From NCBI RefSeq assembly GCF_021917145.1, contig NW_025813938.1:1883998-1947997 (forward strand): 64,000 nucleotides of DNA, read 5' to 3'. The notes under the pieces were generated by a model. It ran no database searches. It was given only the letters and a program-made list of their open reading frames with translations, and was not told the origin of the DNA. Shown piece after piece: positions 12,771 to 29,400 of this stretch. Position 1 is the stretch's first letter. Each line of letters begins with the position of its first letter. This DNA comes from Hypomesus transpacificus. Its lineage: Eukaryota; Chordata; Actinopteri; Osmeriformes; Osmeridae. The translations under genes and the position numbers were made by a program.

Positions 12771-13772
12771 AGTGACTGCTAAAACGAACAATGGGGTATC
12801 GTGTGCCACTCGTCTTCTCCAAGCATTACCCCGCTCCCACGGGAGTACCAGCGCCACTCTCTGTGGATGGCAGTCGGTCTGTGGAGGTCACTAGAGGCGT
12901 GTGGGGGGATGGCCCGGAGACATGGCAGCTGGCTCGCGTTCCTTCTTTCCACTGCGCGGAGAACAACGGGCTAATGCGGCCCACCACGTCCATATCGATC
13001 GTCATATATTGCGCACATTTATTTGTTTACTTATTTAAGTAAGGCGGTGAAGTCCCTGGGGGAAACCAGCAACCACAATTAAAGTGGAGAGCCATCGCTT
13101 AGTTTGTTCCCTTGTCTGATCGTGGGAGGCCCGTTGCAAGACCATTTCGGACAGGACGTTCTTATTTAAGTGTTTGATATAAATTATTGACGTGAAATAA
13201 GAAAATAACTAACATGTCAAAATGTGTATGGAAGTTATGTCACTCAATTAAGCAATATTTCTAAATTCTCTGAAACGATTAAAATGTTTCTTCAGGTCAG
13301 ATCTACAAATGCGATGTGTCTCTGAGTTCTGATCATAAGAAAAGGGTATATTATTTAATTACTCGTTCTAATTTCTTGGAATTGTATCTTGAAACGTAGC
13401 CTACTGTCGATTTCCCGTAAAATAACTTAGTTAAGATAACATGTGTAAATTATGGTTATAGCTGTTGCTAAAATGAGAGAAAGAAAAAACATCCGTCTAT
13501 TTTCTTGATAACCGATATTTCTAATTGAGGTGACTTGAAAATCTGAATTGCTTATTTGGAAGTCAAGTCACCAAGTGTTTCTAACAGGTTGTGTTGGTGG
13601 AAACACGATTCCATTCTGGATAGCCCGGCGGCCACGGTGATGTAGAGGTTTAGCGCACTCTTCTGGATCAGGCAGGTAAACACAGGGGATTTTATGAAAT
13701 AACGAATTGGGATTAAGGATGAAAAAAAAAAAAGCAAGCGCAACAAGAGGTGCATGCAAAACAACTAAAATA

Positions 13773-13778
13773 TTTATT
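13773..13778 (-). terminator. Poly(A) signal for the peroxidase gene
   Basis: AATAAA on the minus strand (tttatt on plus), about 270 nt past the stop codon, the first such signal downstream. Confidence 0.5.
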
Positions 13779-14044
13779 TGTTTAATCAATTAAAGGAAAA
13801 TATCAGAAATAATTTTGAATAGCAGTACAACCATATAAGCTGTCTGTGTTCCATCCTTACTTTATCAATTGAATTAAAAACATAAATAAATGTAATCCTA
13901 GAGGCCTGCTCTTGTCTAATCAGTGCAAAGCAGGCCCAGTAAAAAAAAAAATAGTTTTCCTCTGACACACAAACATCTGAAGGATCGCACAAGAGACCTG
14001 ATTTTCCTCTGTGTCACGGTTTGCTCATCCTTGTCCAGGACGAC

Positions 14045-14719
14045 TCAGGGATTGAAAATCAGGTGACCTGAAAAGTAGCTGTAAGAGAGCATGCGGCTGC
14101 TGCTTTGGACGGTGAGCCACACCCGGTCTCCCCGCCTGAGCTGCACCAGGGTTCCGCCCGAGGCGGTGGTGCGGCTGTTTGTGGCCTGCTTGCTGATGTA
14201 GGAGAGTACCATCCGCTTGTTGTTGCGTTTCAGTTCCACGTAGCCCAGGCTATTGGAGAACGTGCAGTGGAACTCAAATTCGTAGACGCCGGGCTCCACG
14301 CAGGTGAACACCCCTGTGCCCGGTTTGTAGTGGTTCTGTCCGTTGTAGATTACCTGACGGAAGGGGATGGGCTTGTTCGGTTTGGGGTAGTTGAAACCAA
14401 GGCCCACAGCAAAGGCGGATTTGACCAAGACGCCCGGAGGCCCGGGAGGTCCAGTTCTGCCCCGGAAACCACGTGGTCCTTGGCTTCCTGGAACAGGAGA
14501 GATTCAAAAAAACAGTCACGCTCCGGAAAAAAGAAAACCCTAACCCACTTAATAAAAGAAGAGGAGGAAGAAGGAGAGAAGGAAGAGGAGGAGGAAAAGG
14601 AAGAAGGATAGGAGGAGGGATAGTAGAGGAGGGTGGCAAAGAGGAGGAGGAAGATGAGAGTTTGATGTTACCTTTGGGCCCTCGTTGTCCTCGTTGTCCT
14701 CGTTGTCCTCGTTGTCGAG
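14045..14719 (-). other. Collagen-like stalk and C1q domain exons of the peroxidase gene
   Basis: Exon 13 (14672-14719, 48 nt, phase 1 on both sides) reads [16 protein letters not shown]. Exon 14 (14045-14487) continues [19 protein letters not shown], making about ten G-X-Y triplets. The C1q domain of about 127 residues follows: [14 protein letters not shown], then [25 protein letters not shown], and it ends [11 protein letters not shown]. This is the usual order in C1q/TNF-family proteins, which trimerise. There is no start codon or signal peptide for a separate C1q gene upstream, and the phase-1 junction from exon 12 fits, so it is read as the C-terminus of the peroxidase. Confidence 0.8.
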
Positions 14720-17700
14720 CTGCAGAGAGACCGCCATGGGAGGTTATCAACCACATTATCATCCACGTTATCACCCACATTATCACCTGCATTATCTTCC
14801 ACATTATCATCCACGTTATCATCCACATTATTATCCATGTTATCAACCACATTATCATCCACATTATTATCCATGTTATCATCCACATTATTATTATCCA
14901 TGTTATCAACCACATTATCATCCACATTATTATCCATGTTATCATCCACATTATTATCCACGTTATCATCCACATTATTATCCACATTATTATCCATGTT
15001 ATTATCCACGTTATCATCCACGTTATCATCCACATTATCATCCACATTATCATCCACATTATCATCCACATTATCATTCACATTAACATTATCATTCACA
15101 TTATCACCTGCATTATCATCCACATTATCATGCACATTATCATCCACATTATCATCCACATAATGATGACTAGATAGCACATTGTCTCCCTGTACTGATG
15201 ACTTGTTCCACTCACCGTCCTCATCCCAGGGGCTCAGGTCCATAGCGGGGATGTCCTTGCAGAGTCGGTACCCCGCCCCGCGAGGTCGGTACTCGAATGG
15301 GTTGTGAGGTACCTCGGTGATGCCGGTGTTGTCGCAGATGATGCGGGCCAGGGAGGTGGCCCTCAGGGAGGCTCTCTGGTCGTTCGTGAACACCCCCGGG
15401 TTCTCCCACCACAATCTGAAACGGAGTTGGCGTCGTCATTGAGGGAACGTTTGGAGTTTGGACGGTGTGGATGGTTCTGCGGGAAACTAAAACGAAGGCT
15501 CCAGGTATATAACCATGGGGGGGGGGGGCAGAAAGTCCCTCATTTACAGGTCTGGCCCCCTTAGATTTCTGATTGTTTACATTAGGAAATGTTGACGTAT
15601 AATTGTTTTAGTGGGTGACGGGTTAGGGAGTCGGGCTATTAATAAAAAGGTTGTTGGTTCGAGCCTAATGACGTTGCGTCCTTGGGCAAGGCACTTCACC
15701 CTACTTGCCTCGGTGGGGGAATGTCCCTGTACTTACTGTAAGTCGCTCTGGATAAGAGTGTCTGCTAAATGACTAAATGTAAAAATGTAGAGGCCTCCTT
15801 TTAAGTCGCACCTGTCTCCCTGACGGATGTTCCGGAACTGCTTGGCAATGAGGCAGGCGAACAGAGGCCCCACGCGACCGTTGGGCACGAAGGGCTCAGC
15901 CACTCCGCCCAGCCACACGTCGATGTTGTCGGGTGTCCCGTACAGCGCTAGCAGGTTGGTAGCCAGCTGGGTGTTGTTCATCACCATAGCCAGCTCTGAC
16001 AGGTTCCTGGGTTGAGACAGGCCACAGAACCCACGCCACTTGTTGTAACCTGCGGATTCAGAGGATGAAGGAGTCAAACCCTCTCGTGGAGAAAAACCTA
16101 GAGTTTTCCTCTGATGTGCTGCCTTACACCTTTACTTTTTTTGTAAAAAACAAAAATTGGGGGAGAGGGGGTTGGAATGTCAAAAGGATGGGAATCTGCT
16201 GATTGGCTCTTGGAGGGAGAGAGGGAGGGGCCTTACCAGGAAGCCCGTGGTCCCGGCCACGCTGCAGGTTGAGGGCGGCCAGGTCCAGGGCCAGGTGGGA
16301 GGTGAACTGGAAGAGGCGTTCCCTCAGCTCGTCAGGCATCATCTGGTCCTGAGTGTTCAGCTTGGCCTGGCGGCCCACCAGACCCCTCAGGATGGGGTCC
16401 AGACCACCTGCAGGACAGCCGGAAAAAGAGTCAGACCGGCCGAAGGAGAAGCTTGTCGCTTGAAGCAAATCCTTCACATTTCGCCGTATCACAAAACATT
16501 CTACCATACATATCATCCGTGTTCTCTTTTTGTGCAAGGTAAGGCGCAATAGACCACGATCCCACTCATTTTCACCCTTACAAACATATGTTGACAATGG
16601 ATTTGTCGATCGATCGGGAAGGTGTGTACCTTCGAAGACGACCCTCCAGGGGGTGAAGAAGGCCCTGTGCAGCAGTGGACTGGGGAACCTGGGGTGCTCC
16701 TGGTACCTCTCGTCCAGACGGAACATGAAGGGCTGGATGGCCAGGTGAGCGAAGCGGTAGGCAGCCGTGGCGAACACGCTGGAGATGCTGGGATCCACAC
16801 GCTCGTTGTAGCCAGGGTAGGTGGACAGCTGCTTGGAAAGCACGTCAGGCCCCACGATGTGACGCAGGTAGTCCCTGAAGGTGATCACCTGTGAGAGGAA
16901 GATCGAACATAGAATCAGAATCAGAATTTGGTTCATTCGCCATGTATGTTACATTTACATTTATGCATTTAGCAGACGCTTTTATCCAAAGCGACTTCCA
17001 AGAGAGCGCTTTACAAAAGAGCATAGGTCACTGATCATAACAACAAGGTAGTCCCAAACATTGCAGGCAGCCAAAACATGAAGCATGTTATACAAACACA
17101 GAATTTACTGTGGTTTTACTCGTGAATTTACTAGGTTTGTGAATTTACTAGGTTTGTGAATTTTTAAGGTTTCACAGCATCGTTAAAGAACAGATGGGTT
17201 TCCGAGGGGCGACATCTTCACGGTAGGGAGACATTAACGACCGTTTAACTGCATTGCGATACATGTAGTGACAATATAAGATAAGGCCTTTATTAGTCCT
17301 TCACTGGGGAACATTGTAGTTACATGGGAACTGCTACTGGGTTAAGATTAGGGTTAAACAAAGTTAGGGTTTGGGGGAAAGGGAGGGTTAGGGAGGGTTA
17401 GGGTGAGGGAGTCAGATGGCTGAGCGGTTAGGGAATCGGGCTATTAATCAGAAGGTTTCCGGTTCGATTCCCGGCCATGCAAAATGACATTGTGTCCTCG
17501 GGCACTTCACCCTACTCTCCTCGGGGGGAATGTCCCTGTACTTATGGTAAGTCGCTCTGGATAAGAGTGTCTGCTAAATAACTAAATGTAAATGAACGAC
17601 CTGGAAGTAGGGTTAGGGTGAGGACCCACCTGGTGTTAGGGTTAGGGTGAGGACCCACCTGGTGGTAGGGTTAGGGTGAGGACCCACCTGGTGGTGGGGT

Positions 17701-20700
17701 TAGGGTGAGGGTGAGGACCCACCTGGTGGTAGGGTTAGGGTGAGGACCCACCTGGTGGTAGGGTTAGGGTGAGGGTGAGGACCCACCTGGTGGTGGGGTT
17801 AGGGTGAGGGTGAGGACCCACCTGGTGGTAGGGTGAGGGTGAGGACCCACCTGGTGGTAGGGTTAGGGTGAGGACCCACCTGGTGGTATGGTTAGGGTGA
17901 GGACCCACCTGGTGGTAGGGTGAGGGTGAGGACCCACCTGATGGTAGGGTGAGGGTGAGGGTGAGGACCCACCTGGTGGTAGGCTCCCATGATCTTCCGG
18001 GCCTCCTGATAAAGCCGTTCTCCGACCCAGCTGGGGTTCAGCTTGGCCAGGGCCCGAGCCAGGCGGTTGTGCTCCCTGAGCATCAGGGTGTGGAGGGAGG
18101 TCAGGCCGATGTGCTCGTTCACCCGTTCGTCACCTGGAAAAACGTAACCGGAAAATACCCAGGATTCGATATTCAATATCAGGGAATTGAAACCGGAATC
18201 GATTCATACTTTGGAATCGGGAAACACTGGAAGATACATTATATACATGTAAAAAAATAGGTATTTCTGATGGTTTGCTCACCTGCTACGAAACAGGGGA
18301 CTTCTGTGGCACTGGAGTCATTGGTGATGCGTGCACGATTGGTACAGATGTTTGACTCCATGCTACTGAAAGGCAGGAGTTCGCGGCCGGAGTCGTTGAA
18401 CATGGTGTTGACCCTCATCAGGCCCTTGTTGTCAGTGAGGCTTCGCAGGCTGCGGGCCTTCACGTCGTCGGCTCCGTACACCTGGCCCAAGTCGATGAAA
18501 GCCGTCAGGGCGTTCATCTGTTGACGCGCGTTGATAGCGCCAAAGAGGAGGCCTGTGTTCCCTGTTCCGCAGGCGGGAGCTGAACGGAAGAAGGGCATGC
18601 ACTGGCTGGAGTTCAGACCAAAACGGGTGTCGTTCATGGGGACCTGTTTCAGACGAAAGAGGAAGCGGTTAGGGTCGCGCTGAAGGATCTCGTTTCGTGG
18701 GTGTGTCTGTGTGTGTTTATCTGTGTGTGTGTGTGTCTGTGTGTGCATATCTGTGTGTGCGCGAGTCTGTCTATGTGTGTATCTGTGTGTGTGTGTTGAG
18801 CTTTGAGAAAGGCACAGACCTCGATGGGGAAGCAGGGCTCTCTGCGGTCGCAGCTGGCGTCACAGTCGATGCCGCCGTTGAAGGAGCGGATGCTGGGGGA
18901 GTGAGGGGTGAAGGTCAGGTCGTGGTCCGTCCACTGGCCGAAGATGGTCACCAGGTGCGTATAGAGCGCATCGTTCTCCACGTCCGCGTTGGCTGTGCTC
19001 AGGATCCGGTTGGACACCTCCCTCACCTGGAGACATGGAGAAAGACATCCCATTGGTCAGAGAGAAGACAATTAAAAAATCTGTCAGGTTACCAATCTGT
19101 GCTTCAACCTTCAGTATATATGATATATATTATTGCCAATCTGTCAGTGCTTCTAGCTTCAGTCTAAGTATAAACCAATAGGACTGCTCTTCCTCGACTC
19201 TGACCACGGGAACAGACCTACGTACTCCTTGTTCTTTCTTTTGTACCTTCTGTGAGCACAACTTCAACATCCCTCTGGATCAAAAGTGTCTACAGCGAAG
19301 GAAGACAATTAAAATGCAGGAAGGAAGACAGGATGGCTGTACCAGGGGAAGCAGGTAGTTGTTGACCCGCCTGTCTGCGTCCCAGCCCTTAGGCTGAGAG
19401 ATGCCGTCCTGGTACTCTGCGGGCAGCCAGAGGGCGAAGGGGGTGTTCGATGAGCCTTTGATGGGGTTTTTCCTGTGAAACAGAAAGAATCGTTCATCAT
19501 TCAACCTGATTGACATTTGCGTGCTTGTTTGATTCATTAAAAAAAACATAAGAGATCCGATCATAACTTTTTTTATGTTTAAATAATTATTGAACATTTT
19601 TTTATTAATTTTAATTATGTTTCATCAGCCCTACCTCAGTACTTAACATATTAATTCAGCACACACTTTTATCCAATGCGGATGTGTAAGATGGGGGGGA
19701 ATTGAACCCGTGACCTGCAGTCAAGCGTTCTGAGGTACACCCACTTTCTTTTTTGTCTATCAGGGAATCAGATGGCTGAGCGGTGAAAATGAGTCGGGCT
19801 AGTAATCAGGATGTTGCCGGATCGATTCCCCGCCATGCCACATGATGTTGTGTGCCTTGCCTTGCAAGTAGGGCAAGGCACTTCACCCTACTTGCCTCGG
19901 GGGGGGAATGTCCCTGTACTTACTGTAAGTCGCTCTGGATAAGAGCGTCTGCTAAATGACAAAATGTAAATATATTATGTCTATGTGACGAGTGTGGTCG
20001 AGCCGTTCAATGGGTCTGGCTTACTGGTCGTTGCAGACACTGGTGGCAGGGCGGAACTTGTCCAGATCCGGGATTAAATTACAGCTGGCACGTGCTCTGG
20101 GTGAGCAGCCAGTCAGATCAGCGATCGTTTTCAGTTGCTCCTTGGAGAGCAGATCTGAGAGGAGACAACAAAGTGTGTGTAAGTGTGTGTGTACATGTAG
20201 TCTGTGTGTGTTTACATTGACATTTATTCATTTAGCAGACGCTTTTATAGAAAAGCGACTTACAAGAAAGAGCTTTACAAACAAGAAAACATTGTGGGTG
20301 GCCAAAACATGAAGCATGCATTGTGAAAAGCAAATAAATGCCAATGAGTAGAACCAGAAGAGCATGTAGTGAAACTAATTACAATTACACAACATGATCC
20401 TTGAAAGTGCTAGAGTGTACCTGGAGGAAAGCAAACAACAATAATATAATTCACAGCGAGTAGCAAGTAGTTAAAGTGCAACAAGTCCCTCAATAAGTGA
20501 CATTGTGTTCCTGGAGGAAATAAACTAACATCTGATCCAACAAATCTTCCTTAAGTATCGTTGTATTCCCGGAACAAGTGCGTAGTGTTTAAGTGTGTCG
20601 TGTTTAAGTGTGTATGAACATGTGTGTGTGTGCGCGTGTGAGAGGGGACTGACCCGTAGCGTTGAGCGAACGCTTCTGGAGGAAGTGGTTGCTTAGGGAC

Positions 20701-22646
20701 CTCTCCTGGATCAGGGTGATGGCTTGCTCCATGTAGTCCGCTGAGCGCACAGCCGTGCGGGTCTGGCCGTTAGGCTGCTTGATGAGACGCAGGATGTCTG
20801 AGGGTGAGATGGAGCTCCTCCTCACCCTCGCCACGCTCCTGCGCAGGAGACAGAGGAAGCATTTTGTTTCTGAATCGAAACCACTTTACATTTACATTTA
20901 TTCATTTAGCAGACGCTTTTATCCAAAGCGACTTCTAAGAGAGAGCTTACAAAAGAGCATAGGTCACTGATCATAACAACGAGATAGTCCCAAACATTGC
21001 AAGTAGCCAAAACATGAAGCATACATTGTGAAAAGCTAAACAAGTGCCAAAGGGAAGACACATCAGAGCATTCAGTTATACAAGTTACAAATTAAACAAC
21101 ATGAACCACAAAAGTGCAGGACTGTACCTGTAGAAGAACAATCAACAGTAAAAATATTTCACAGCGAGTACAAGACTTAACTTCGTTATATCTAACCTAA
21201 AAGAGCAACAAGTCACTCAATAAGAGTCATTGTGATCCTGGAGGAAACTAAACTAGGCTCATCCACTTTCCTGGTTGATGAGCCTACTGGGTGTCTGAGC
21301 AGAGCTTTTTTTTAATGTGAAAATGTCTATTTGCTGTTTCAATGAATTTGAAATGTATAAATAGAATTATAGTTTTTATTTATGAATAGTATAAAACAAG
21401 TTATAATATAGGCAGTTAAATACTTTGTTAAAAAAATCTATCAACACTAATTATTATCTGTAATTAACCGATACAGATTAACGGATGATAACGGTGTATT
21501 TACTGTAAATCACACATTTGATTGTCTACTTACGCTTCTCTGGAGTACTTGTATGCCTCGTCCACTATTACTTTTGCGTCATTCACAGCCCTCTCGATGA
21601 AATCTCTGCTCAAACGAGCTTCTGAGAATCAAATATAAAAAACATAACTCACAAAAAACATTTTTTTCTATGTTACTGAGTATTAGATCAGCCAGAAACA
21701 TATAGAACTTGTAACTGACAAATTAAAGCGGTAAAGGAAAAAATCATGACTTAATAATAAATGCACACTAATTTGAATTTATTTTTTCAACGGTATTCTT
21801 TCAACAACACACTCTTGAAAACGAAATAACTTCATCAAGAAGCACAGAAGTGCTTTAATTTACGAGAAAAAAAGAAGCCAATAAAGCCTTTGAAATAGGC
21901 TTGATAATTGTTTTGTAAAATAAACCAAACAAAACATCTAAAAAAAACCCATCTATATTCTCTATCCTCTCAGGGTGTGCTGAAGTCACCATAAACACAG
22001 GGGCAGGAGAAGAGAGAAGACCCTTACCCCAACCCTTACATACCCTTACCCCAACCCTTACATACCCTTACCCCAACCCTTACATACCCTAACCCCAACC
22101 CTTACATACCCTTACCCCAACCCTTAGATACCCCCAACCCTTACATACCCTTACCCCAACCCTTACATACCCTTACCCCAACCCTTACATACCCTTACCC
22201 CAACCCTTACATACCCTTACCCCAACCCTTACATACCCTTACCCCAACCCTTACATACCCTTACCCCAACCCTTACATACCCTTACCCCAACCCTTACAT
22301 ACCCTTACCCCAACCCTTACATACCCTTACCCCAACCCTTAGATACCCCCAAACCTTACATACCCTTACCCCAACCCTTACATACCCTTACCCCAACCCT
22401 TACATACCCTTACCCCAACCCTTAGATACCCCCAACCCTTACATACCCTTACCCCAACCCTTAGATACCCTTACCCCAACCCTTAGATACCCTTACCCCA
22501 ACCCTTAGATACCCTTACCCCAACCCTTACATACCCTTACATACCCTCCCCTTACCCACACCCACAGGAGAGGAACACTCACCAGCCGCACGCCCACACA
22601 TGCAGAGGCACAGGCCTGCAGCCAGCAGAAACAGAAACCCCTTCAT
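14045..22646 (-). CDS. mpx: Animal heme peroxidase (MPO/EPX type) fused to collagen-like stalk and C1q domain
   Basis: Secreted or granule heme peroxidase using H2O2 to make hypohalous acids. Exons: 22583-22646, 21534-21606, 20654-20838, 20025-20154, 19343-19472, 18820-19026, 18283-18643, 17973-18133, 16630-16888, 16237-16407, 15812-16049, 15216-15415, 14672-14719, 14045-14487. These total 2670 nt, 889 aa, with every phase closing. Residues 1-21 are a signal peptide ([17 protein letters not shown]). Peroxidase domain about 100-720: distal Asp228/His229 (GQWTDHD), Arg387 and Glu390, proximal His485 ([11 protein letters not shown]), Asn570 ([11 protein letters not shown]). MPO Met243 is replaced by His391, and the Ca ligand Ser174 by Gly316. 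Exon 12 does not stop: it splices in phase 1 to a 48-nt GQR-repeat exon, then to a collagen/C1q exon. The exon 2 acceptor is uncertain (21606 or 21622; see findings). The symbol follows the fish mpx family; orthology to MPO, EPX or LPO individually is not resolved. Confidence 0.88.
14728..15165. repeat. 12-bp intronic minisatellite (attatcatccac)
   Basis: About 35 copies of a 12-bp unit with variants (attattatccat/g, attatcaaccac) fill the intron between peroxidase exons 12 and 13. On the minus strand the unit reads GTGGATGATAAT, coding V-D-D-N with no stop, so the unspliced message stays open through the intron. Confidence 0.95.
15612..15785 (+). mobile_element. tRNA-derived SINE (head degraded)
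   Basis: Head resembles a tRNA-Leu-type sequence (here missing the first ~15 nt and with a decayed B box, ggttcgagcc). The body reads ccttgggcaaggcacttcac and the tail is gtaagtcgctctggataaga then gtctgctaaatgactaaatg. In peroxidase intron 11, antisense to the gene. Confidence 0.9.
16945..17130. mobile_element. Interspersed repeat B (partial)
   Basis: Begins tttatgcatttagcagacgc and runs through gcataggtcactgatcataa and agccaaaacatgaagc. The first 35 bp are the reverse complement of the SINE tail (tagcagacgc...gcgactt), so this family shares its end with the SINE. Related copies are at 20207-20540, 20885-21252 and 61941-62044. Confidence 0.7.
17411..17594 (+). mobile_element. tRNA-derived SINE, full length
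   Basis: Intact A box (tggctgagcggttaggg) and B box (ggttcgattcc), conserved body, and the tail ctgctaaataactaaatg. Inserted in peroxidase intron 8, antisense to the gene. Confidence 0.93.
17600..17975. repeat. 29-bp minisatellite carrying copies of the exon 8 splice donor
   Basis: Eleven decoy copies of gtgaggacccacctggtggt followed by agggttagg, the last merging into the real exon 8 end (17973). On the minus strand each unit has CCACCAG/GTGGGTCC, matching the authentic exon 8 donor. The TTAGGG-like half gives it a telomere-like look. Confidence 0.93.
19767..19973 (+). mobile_element. tRNA-derived SINE, full length
   Basis: Recognisable head (cagatggctgagcggtgaaa), body with an extra duplicated gggcaaggca stretch, and the shared tail ending gctaaatgacaaaatgtaaa. 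In peroxidase intron 4. Confidence 0.92.
20207..20540. mobile_element. Interspersed repeat B, long copy
   Basis: About 330 bp in peroxidase intron 3, matching 20885-21252 along its length: shared start (catttattcatttagcagac), middle (ggccaaaacatgaagcat), and end (tgttcctggaggaaa). Its family is not assigned. Confidence 0.7.
20885..21252. mobile_element. Interspersed repeat B, long copy
   Basis: Second long copy, in peroxidase intron 2, about 45 bp from exon 3. Starts tttacatttacatttattca; ends tgtgatcctggaggaaac. Confidence 0.7.
22018..22560. repeat. 22-bp minisatellite (cccttaccccaacccttacata)
   Basis: About 25 copies in peroxidase intron 1, ending about 20 bp from the exon 1 donor at 22583. 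A shortened unit (cttagatacccccaaccc) recurs. On the minus strand each unit contains GTAAGGG twice, i.e. donor-like hexamers. Confidence 0.95.
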
Positions 22647-22809
22647 CTCTGCAGGACAAAGAAGGAATGATTTGTCAAGAACTTTCCAGAAAAACAAGAT
22701 CTCGAAACTGCATCAGGTGAACGAGTTTTCAGTGATTGTTCAGGTCACTGTACGATGAACGCTTGGTATTTCTGGTAGGTTTGGAGAAAAAAAAAACATA
22801 ACTGAATTG

Positions 22810-23080
22810 TAATAATAATAATAATAAATGTTATTTCTAAGGCACTTTTTATTTGAAAACAAATCTCAAAGTGCTACAGTTAAGATTATGAAACAAGGTA
22901 AAACATCAATAGAAAATACAATTAGATAATTAAAACTCATAAGATCTGCTAAAAATAAATGTTTTTAGTCCTTTAAAAAAAATCTCAGTAGTTTGAGCAG
23001 CCATCAGATGGTCGGGGAGGGCGTTCCAGATCCGAGGAGCGGCAGAACAGAAAGCCCAGTCACCCATGGTGTCAAAGAGT
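22810..23080. mobile_element. Probable interspersed repeat upstream of the peroxidase gene
   Basis: An aataataataat run, then ttctaaggcactttttattt and a stretch ending ggagggcgttccagatccga, wording typical of dispersed fish retroelement tails. No second copy in this window, so the call is tentative. Confidence 0.4.
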
Positions 23081-23250
23081 TAGTTAAATTAACCATACAC
23101 AACAGGAATTGGATTCAAATAATTTACAAATTAAACACAACTATGTCTAATTGTAAAATGCTCAGTTGAAGCTGGATGACAGAAGTTCTATAAAAGGGTG
23201 TAAGAGAGGTTCCCATCTGATCAAATACCTTCAACCTTGATGTGTCAGGG

Positions 23251-23449
23251 AGTCAGGTGGCTGAGCGGTGAGGGAGTCGGGCTAGTAATCTAAAAGGTCG
23301 CCAGTTCGATTCCCGGTTACACCAAAAATGACGTTGTGTCCTTGGGCAAGGCACTTCACCCTACTTGCCTCGGGGGAATGTCCCTGTACTAACTGTAAGT
23401 CGCTCTGGATAAGAGCGTCTGCTAAATGACTAAATGTAATGTAAATGTA
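23251..23449 (+). mobile_element. tRNA-derived SINE, full length
   Basis: Head aggtggctgagcggtgaggg, B box agttcgattcccgg, body and tail as in the other copies. In the 5' flank of the peroxidase gene. Confidence 0.93.
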
Positions 23450-24044
23450 TGCTTCTCCAGAATGGACAGGTTAGTGAGCTGTACTGATTGTGGGTATTTA
23501 TAGTCCATCACCTTCAGTATCCAACCCTCTCGTCCCTCCTCCTTCTGAACCCAAAGTATCTCTTGGCAAACAAGATTTTCTTCTAAAGGGGAATGAAACA
23601 AAGTTTCCTGCCAATTATGTTAAAACCATTTACCGTAAACCCCGCCTCCTTGCATAGACGGGACTAATGTGCAAACTATTTTCATGATTTAAAGTTTGTG
23701 GTTGTCATTTACTTGGTAATCAATTCAAAATTCAAAATGTTGTCATCATTCTCCATCCATTGATTAACGGTTGTGTTTGTTCCAGTTTATTATTATTTAA
23801 CATACTTCAGTCTCATCTACTCGTGGATATACAGTTACCCTGCACATCACACAACACTCAGGAAAAGGAAACGTAGGGTGAATTCGGGTGATTTGGGAAA
23901 CTTTTTGCACACATTTTCTCATCAGAGCTTCCTGATTAACTAGTGTCCTGACCCTTCCTGTAACACCACAACAATCACGTTTTGTGATTTCAGTCACATA
24001 ACATCCATGCTAAACCTAGAGTCAAAGTTATGTGGACAAACATT

Positions 24045-26476: not shown

Positions 26477-29400
26477 ATGATGGCTGGTTTGACTTGTATC
26501 CTGGTTCTCTTTATTACCATTTGCCATGGTAAGTTCGTTAGCCCACCTAAGACCAAGGTAATACTGACAACGTTAAGACTCGCTAATGGTTGTTGGGACT
26601 TGTTTACAGGCTTAGGTGAAACTCGCGTTGTTAATGGACCAGCCACCAGGACGGACATCACACTGGCGTCTACGGTGAGTTTTACGTTAGTTTTGTTTCG
26701 CAGTTTCTTACGGTTATTTTGTTCACATTGACGGTTTTAATAGCATGCATATAGCCTACTGTATACCAAGAAATATCTTCTCTTTCACCTTTCTAAAAAC
26801 AGCACCTACGTCGTTTCACTTCTGCTTTTTATTTTTAATTGTATCAAATGTGTCTATGATATCACTGGTTATGTATGCCTGTAGGCTACATGGTATATAA
26901 TAATTGTATCCCTGTGCATGGCTTGAAAACATTTTTTCTGAACTTTATTCTCTAGTCGAACAACATCTGCACGGACTGCCTCCAGATCGTAGAGCTGTTC
27001 AAAGACATGCTTTCTCATGAAGACACTCAGGTAAGCTGTCCCTCGCATTCAACTACGGGCCATTTCAAACAACTTCACTTATATTCTATACCTTAGGGGC
27101 TACTGCATCTACTGGCTGTTGTAGCAGGGGGAGCCCATTGTGATGGCGGTGATGTGAGAATGTTGTGTACTAATTGGTACTACTTTTATATTCCCTCGAT
27201 AACAGATTATTTCTAGATAAATATATTCAAACTTTAACAGTCACAGTCTTGTATGTCTTCAGAAAGAGAAGTGAAAATGGGTGGCAAATCTTGTTCCTCT
27301 TTTTGAAATTGTACCTTACATTTTCATCCATCAGCCTTTAGCCATCTGTGTAGCTGTTCGTGTAGGACCACATCTACGTAACTTTGAGCTGTCTGTGTAA
27401 CTGTTCCTGTAGGGCCACATCTACGTAACTTTGAGCTGTCTGTGTAACTGTTCCTGTAGGACCACATCTACGTAACTTTGAGCTGTCTGTGTAACTGTTC
27501 CTGTAGGGCCACATCTACGTAACTTTGAGCTGTCTGTGTAACTGTTCCTGTAGGGCCACATCTACGTAACTTTGAGCTGTCTGTGTAACTGTTCCTGTAG
27601 GGCCACATCTACGTAACTTTGAGCTGTCTGTGTAACTGTTCCTGTAGGACCACATCTACGTAACTTTGAGCTGTCTGTGTAACTGTTCCTGTAGGGCCAC
27701 ATCTACGTAACTTTGAGCTGTCTGTGTAACTGTTCCTGTAGGGCCACATCTACGTAACTTTGAGCTGTCTGTGTAACTGTTCCTGTAGGGCCACATCTAC
27801 GTAACTTTGAGCTGTCTGTGTAACTGTTCCTGTAGGGCCACATCTACGTAACTTTGAGCTGTCTGTGTAACTGTTCCTGTAGGGCCACATCTACGTAACT
27901 TTGAGCTGTCTGTGTAACTGTTCCTAGGACCACATCTACGTAACTTTGAAGATCTTCTGCGGACGTCTACCAGGGTATGACAAAATAAATATGTGTGAAT
28001 CCCTGCTGCAAGAGCAGCTTCCTAAAGCCTACAAGTACCTGACCAACATGGTGAGTCAGAGGTTGTTGTCCACCAGCTGCGTCAGATTGTCTCTGTTTTG
28101 CGTCTAATCCACCATGTCAGATGGCTGAGCGGGCTATTAATCAGAAGGTTGCCGGTTCGATTCCCGGCCATGCAAATGTCGTTGTGTCCTTGGGCAAGGC
28201 ACTTCACCCTACTTGCCTCGGGGGGAATGTCCCTGTACTTACTGTAAGTCGCTCTGGATAAGAGCGTCTGCTAAATGACTACATGTAAATGTCCTTTTAT
28301 TGGGCTGTAGGTGGCGGGTGACGCTTGTATGGGCCTGGGGATGTGTGCTCTTCAAGCGATGACAGGAGTGTCAGTGATGCTTCCGGACAAGGATGATTCC
28401 AGTCTCATGCCAGAGGCTAGCGCCAGCCTGCAGGTAGGAGACCGACCATGACACGACATAAGCAGATGACATAAGCACACAGCATGGCAACGGGCTGTTT
28501 ATTAACTCAAAGAAAGACTTGCTACTCCTCGAGGTGTCGAAACTTCTATCCTCTGACAGTTTTCTGGCGGGGTTTTGCTTGGCTGCTACAAGGTTTCAGG
28601 CTGGTCGTCGAGGCTTCTGTGAAGCCCTCGGCGACACGGCTTGTGAAAAAGGCTGTGCAAATAAAGTTTTGATTTGACACTAGGTGCAGATCGGCCCCCA
28701 GTGCACCTTCTGTGTCCTGCTCATTAAGAAGCTGGAGAACATGCTACCAAAAGAGAGGACTGAGGTGACTCCATGTTACACAGATAACATTTACTGAACA
28801 CCATCTCAGACACGGTTTTCTATTAAGACTTTCCCCCCCTCTTCCCTCCCCTTCTCGCTTGGCCGTTTTGGCCCTTGCAGGATGCCGTAGTCCAGTTGAT
28901 GGGGGAGGTGTGTGATCTACTACCCGCCAGCTACAAAGACCAGTGCGATAGCTTCGTCGACAAGTACGGCAAGAAACTGATAGACTTCCTGTTGTCGTCC
29001 GCCGCCCCCCACTCCATCTGCGTCCTGCTGCACCTGTGCTTGATCAAGGAGGCCCCCGTCCCAGGTGAGTGGAGGAGCACAGGGGGCAAGTAGGGGATGT
29101 GAAAGTTTCCGTGTCCATCTATAAGGGCTGAACGATTTAGGAAAATATAATTGTCGATTAATTTGACTTATATTGCGATTTAATATGCGATTATTATATG
29201 ATTTATTATTAATAAATAGATATATACTACTGATCTCCAGTCAGCAACATAACACAAAGTTCAGAAAAATTAAGGAGAACATACCGCCTGTACCTCTTTA
29301 AAAATATTTAGGTAAATCAAATCTAAACGTAGGCTAAGAACATGTGCGTTGCACTATCTTAAGGAGTAGCGTCACAAATATGTGATCATTCGAATGCACG

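Follow-up and report, generated by a model that had tools for sequence, protein, structure and literature searches.

A putative fusion of an MPO/EPX-type heme peroxidase with a collagen stalk and a C1q head in Hypomesus transpacificus

Main finding

The window, meaning the whole 64,000-nucleotide stretch of Hypomesus transpacificus DNA that was analysed, carries on its minus strand (22646-14045) a single gene that probably, at odds of roughly two in three, encodes a secreted heme peroxidase of the MPO/EPX type extended by a short collagen stalk of basic charge and by a C1q head, with trimerisation and targeting predicted from the domains. The argument is sequence-based and relies on an open frame, on splice dinucleotides and phases, on intact domains, and on a peroxidase part that is followed by neither a near stop codon nor any of the poly(A) hexamers tested. 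The initial annotation had placed peroxidase, stalk and C1q domain in one reading frame, and the frame, the domains, the hexamers and the coding score of the DNA support this well. The fusion, read from the DNA with splicing as modelled, is likewise well supported.

Gene model

Reconstructed exon by exon, the gene consists of 14 coding exons with 2685 nt, which encode 894 residues in a frame whose single stop lies at the very end, and GT-AG dinucleotides border each of its 13 introns. The order originally proposed, a signal peptide, an MPO/EPX-type peroxidase, ten Gly-X-Y triplets and a C1q domain, was found again in the 894-residue chain, with Pfam matches in that sequence and the collagen model below its cut-off; the length of 889 residues given at the time has to be corrected to the 894 counted here.

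Coding exon 1 (22583-22646) holds the start codon and the signal peptide. Just before it stands an acceptor-like tcctgcag, so that a 5' UTR intron is possible, and a TATAAA is located beyond it at 23502. Alignment with MPO assigns coding exons 2 (21534-21621) and 3 (20654-20838) to the propeptide. The peroxidase domain, as delimited by Pfam, begins in exon 4 (20025-20154) and includes exons 5 (19343-19472), 7 (18283-18643) and 11 (15812-16049). The residues of the heme pocket were located through the MPO alignment in four further exons: D233 and H234, which we take to be the distal Asp-His pair, in exon 6 (18820-19026); R392 and E395, presumably the catalytic Arg and the ester-linking Glu, in exon 8 (17973-18133), together with H396; H490, the presumed proximal His, in exon 9 (16630-16888); and N575, presumably its Asn partner, in exon 10 (16237-16407).

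The peroxidase part ends, by the same alignment, in exon 12 (15216-15415), which has a phase-1 donor and no stop codon. Exon 13 (14672-14719), defined by the exon reconstruction and a tandem-repeat search, is a symmetric exon of 48 nt that encodes GQR collagen triplets, and exon 14 (14045-14487; 443 nt, Pfam) contributes the remaining collagen stalk, the entire C1q domain and the stop codon. A hexamer search places a poly(A) signal AATAAA at 13773-13778 of the minus strand, 267 nt past the end of the coding sequence. Within the window, tblastn with the peroxidase part returned 12 matches at E values up to 10, all of them on the exons of the gene itself, and with the tail it returned exon 14 itself and three chance matches (E 8.2-9.6).

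Tandem repeats and a SINE-like element

Intron 1, the first coding intron, contains a minisatellite at 22020-22540 with a 22-nt unit in about 24 copies (91% match), and most of intron 12 is occupied by another, located by the tandem-repeat search at 14744-15161 of the minus strand, whose 12-nt unit is present in 35 copies and leaves two frames open: the frame of exon 12 reads as a VDDN-type repeat up to 14670, and the frame of exon 13 as a Met/Trp/Ile repeat. The intron-8 minisatellite (17599-17983, minus strand) has copied the 5' splice site of exon 8. The sequence CAGGTGGGTCC occurs exactly 12 times in 17580-17990, the real donor included, and nowhere else in the window, and 8 of these 12 copies extend to the longer exact form TACCACCAGGTGGGTCC; each intron-8 copy looks, from its letters, like a usable donor.

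The same window has a second minisatellite seeded at an exon boundary, on the plus strand of the saposin-type gene (27368-27950), where a 47-nt repeat has copied a 3' splice site and the start of a likely exon at 27928; CCACATCTACGTAACTTTGA occurs 13 times, 11 times one base after TGTTCCTGTAGG. Finally, a SINE-like element with versions of tttagcagacgctcttatccagagcgacttacag, of a type that we take to be typical of bony fish, was recognised by eye at 19840-19990, 17500-17600, 15650-15780 and 23300-23450, that is, in several introns and upstream of the peroxidase-C1q gene.

Peroxidase part

The An_peroxidase model (PF03098) is matched over its full length, residues 147-705 corresponding to model positions 2-530 of 530 (612 bits, 1.2e-183), and both this match and that to the C1q domain are far above chance. 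From the propeptide through the heavy chain the protein aligns with MPO chain 6bmt_A (721 bits), and the last aligned residue, 730, corresponds to position 743 of 745 in that chain, in agreement with the earlier suggestion that exon 12 stops about where MPO does. The gene product has in common with MPO and EPX the distal Asp-His pair, the Arg, the ester Glu, the proximal His and the Asn (D233, H234, R392, E395, H490 and N575 are all kept in the MPO alignment) as well as the alignable stretch from propeptide to heavy chain, and it differs from them in its C-terminal stalk and C1q head and in the residue at the position of MPO's sulfonium Met.

At that position, which presumably forms the sulfonium heme link of MPO, the protein has H396 instead of the Met of myeloperoxidase proper; moreover, if spliced as modelled, the chain does not end after the peroxidase domain as that of myeloperoxidase proper does. 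Since a His replaces the Met of the MPO-specific link, the enzyme is likely to have a lower chloride-oxidising power than MPO. A review describes the sulfonium link for MPO, and ester links only for EPO and LPO (PMC9138014). Among the best 60 of 101 sequences of solved structures found with phmmer, the closest is MPO, followed by lactoperoxidase, and none is a thyroid peroxidase; within the same 60, the heavy chain of EPX, which is represented among solved structures by separate chains only, scores 528 bits versus 553-554 for that of MPO.

C1q head and collagen stalk

The C1q domain is complete: residues 772-891 match positions 1-127 of the 127 in PF00386 (99.3 bits, 2.4e-28), exon 14 alone reaches 7e-30, and the PROSITE signature of the family is found at 790-820. 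The best single-head match of exon 14 among solved structures is adiponectin (80 bits), followed by collagen X (75) and collagen VIII (74), and C1q chains score up to 55 bits. D187 and D195, which we take to be the calcium ligands of adiponectin, are replaced in the alignment by I and T. According to a review of C1q proteins, calcium supports the trimer in most heads of this type (PMC10672478). The head has a net charge of +10 over 126 residues. A single-sequence fold of exon 14 as a single chain yielded a mean pLDDT of 43.1, too poor for use. Searches for relatives of the exon-14 protein gave 233 pattern matches in prokaryote genomes and 23 in viral contigs, none of which was confirmed, as expected for a vertebrate gene. 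A pseudogene tail was rejected in view of the open 146-codon exon, its coding score in a single frame and the full C1q domain.

Beside the head stands a collagen stalk, a run of G-X-Y at 736-768 in which ten triplets were counted, the final GVL being left out. Its Pfam collagen match (735-766) scores 24.8 bits, below the cut-off of 27.2, as is to be expected of so short a stalk; for a triple helix, ten triplets are few. The stalk is basic, with a net charge of +9 over 37 residues. The tandem repeat in exon 13 has a unit of 9 nt (14680-14716; 4.1 copies, 100% match). One unit equals one Gly-Gln-Arg triplet, so that a stalk lengthened by slippage would stay in register, and if the exon is skipped, an intact frame of 878 residues is left; the length of the stalk may thus vary through exon skipping or through gain and loss of repeat units. 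The RGQR repeats of the stalk presumably fit the minimal furin motif. Peroxidasin, according to one study, is activated when a proprotein convertase removes its C-terminal domain (PMC5377774). Taken together, the motif and this example suggest that the tail might be shed.

Proposed mechanism

C1q-domain proteins are homo- or heterotrimers, as stated in the same review (PMC10672478), and as heads of this family trimerise, the peroxidase would be assembled as three chains linked C-terminally, the stalk acting as spacer. Once the three heads had come together, the ten triplets of the stalk would zip up in turn and a particle with three enzymes would result, and if the chain is cut into a light and a heavy part as in MPO, the tail would stay on the heavy part. 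The cationic head and stalk could then keep the enzyme attached to surfaces, anionic or microbial, at which peroxide arises, with bacterial envelopes, matrix and released chromatin as the favoured anionic ones. By analogy with the usual behaviour of the C1q family, the product would be a multimer that brings its oxidant production to the surface it has bound.

A rather unlikely reading, which overlaps with the one just described in accepting the fusion as real, is that the tail is structural only, serving folding, storage or matrix anchoring with no specific target. The ranking of adiponectin and then the heads of collagens X and VIII as the nearest solved structures agrees with such a role, as does the basic stalk, but C1q-domain proteins can serve as recognition proteins, one in scallop being an example given in part of a study (PMC3419688).

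Evidence for a single transcript

With splicing as modelled, 163 further residues follow the peroxidase domain in frame. Exon 12 ends in phase 1 (GAG GAC G/gtgagt, donor at 15216), as first described, and the in-phase joins claimed for exons 12, 13 and 14 were borne out: both tail exons enter in phase 1, and the Gly-X-Y pattern with its glycine register is unbroken across the two joins, each of which splits a codon. Scored with generic matrices, the exon 12 donor ranks 4 among the 545 GT sites of the gene and the exon 14 acceptor 3 among its 476 AG sites; by the same generic matrices, exon 13 has weaker sites (donor 69/545, acceptor 54/476), its acceptor being the lowest-scoring of the gene's 13. 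When the six frames of exon 14 were compared with the codon usage of exons 1-12 as reference, its own frame scored +0.243 bits per codon and the other five from -0.377 to -0.608. Read past the exon 12 donor, the frame is open for 546 nt, the first stop lying beyond the intron-12 minisatellite, and none of the eight poly(A) hexamers tested is found in 15420-13867, from exon 12 to the C1q stop; after this stop come GATAAA (13866), ATTAAA (13786) and AATAAA (13778). Given the open frame, the ranks of donor and acceptor, the absence of hexamers, the coding score and the glycine register, a single transcript is therefore the simplest reading.

The gene might instead make both forms, a peroxidase with intron 12 retained, or with an early end, as the main product and a tailed one as the minor product, which is improbable. 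Read-through of the donor, open to 14670, would give such a main form an acidic tail of VDDN repeats, and parts of a flounder study describe an MPO without a C1q domain (PMC9908613). However, the rank of the exon 12 donor argues for its use, none of the tested hexamers falls within intron 12, and the repeat of this intron is open in two frames anyway.

Still less probable are two adjoining genes, of which the first, a peroxidase, would end around exon 12 and the second, a short gene for a collagen-C1q protein, would begin in intron 12 or in another exon. Unspliced, the frame of exon 14 opens only at 14503, and its first Met falls within the C1q domain. The unspliced frame of exon 13, in turn, extends upstream for 119 stop-free codons, which run through the intron-12 minisatellite and include many ATGs, and its Met/Trp/Ile run attains a hydrophobicity of 2.43, versus 2.67 for the signal peptide of the peroxidase (9-residue scale). 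The C1q part could thus, with weak likelihood, have a start of its own in this repeat, but a leader built from a minisatellite would be odd and the peroxidase would be left with no near stop, for which reasons two genes are rated low; the peroxidase would also have to do without any tested poly(A) hexamer, and the match of phase and glycine register at both joins would be chance. That the assembly fused two unlinked places through the minisatellite is barely credible: the 418-nt tandem repeat does sit between the two halves, but 13000-23500 contains no N, near-matches to the repeat unit (at most 1 mismatch) number 1 elsewhere in the window versus 23 in intron 12, and strand, phase and collagen register all agree.

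Comparison with known proteins and locus

The single-gene, tailed peroxidase resembles in its tail adiponectin, C1q, collagens VIII and X and the C1QTNF proteins, all of which have a single C1q domain after a Gly-X-Y stalk, and genes of this kind typically encode the whole head in their last exon; unlike it, proteins of the adiponectin type have no enzyme domain, and here the triplets number ten and the presumed calcium ligands of adiponectin are not kept. Peroxidasin offers a precedent for a trimeric heme peroxidase, but by way of other domains. It is presented in parts of one paper as a secreted, multidomain, homotrimeric enzyme (PMC5377774), with LRR, Ig and VWC domains and a disulfide-linked trimer (passages of PMC3533774 and PMC5377774); the domains named there include no collagen or C1q part, in contrast to the gene described here.

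The MPO of flounder (PoMPO), an enzyme of the same type, is described in section 3.1 of PMC9908613 as a 770-aa protein for which only a signal peptide and a peroxidase domain are given, and thus without the C1q domain that the 894-residue chain carries in its tail. Counted from the start of the heavy chain, the flounder protein, as described in that section, has 522 residues (249-770), and the present one has 480 (252-731) if the tail is left out, or 643 if it is included. On the numbers given there, 522 compared with 480, flounder MPO may therefore carry a short extension.

From left to right, the genes of the window are a COE-type factor, the peroxidase-C1q gene, a saposin-type gene, USP39, an S-adenosylmethionine synthetase and an inositol 5-phosphatase with a SKICH domain. 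In human, GGCX presumably lies near MAT2A, USP39 and SFTPB, and SLC35E4 near INPP5J. Because the human counterparts of genes in the window are neighbours of GGCX and SLC35E4, it is plausible that the gene lies at the MPO locus of teleosts or at a duplicate of that locus. The neighbours of teleost MPO listed in a part of the flounder study, namely ggcx, slc35e4, gmcl1 and others (PMC9908613), differ from those seen in the window.

Novelty and significance

No peroxidase-C1q protein appeared in the titles and abstract openings among the matches listed in a search of the open-access literature, which leaves subscription papers mostly outside. The word C1q is absent from the peroxidase papers PMC2315650, PMC4420034 and PMC3533774, as is the word peroxidase from PMC10672478, which reviews the C1q proteins of invertebrates, and both words occur in a mussel transcriptome (PMC5549309) and a planarian matrisome study (PMC6453901). 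These searches are weak evidence that the domain architecture is new, its parts being known, and the same architecture may well be present among the automatically annotated proteins of other fish.

More tentatively, the gene could represent a class of vertebrate peroxidases with a stalk and a C1q recognition head of their own, in which pattern recognition and oxidant killing would be united in one trimer and the stalk length could be varied in whole triplets by a 9-nt repeat and a skippable exon. If the reading of a single, tailed peroxidase is true, an enzyme that generates oxidants would owe its delivery to a C1q head within its own chain and not to diffusion inside the phagosome, and the gene would exemplify natural domain capture through phase-matched exons. 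It would also serve as a caution that Mpx, which is commonly used to mark neutrophils in fish, does not in every case correspond to the MPO molecule of mammals.
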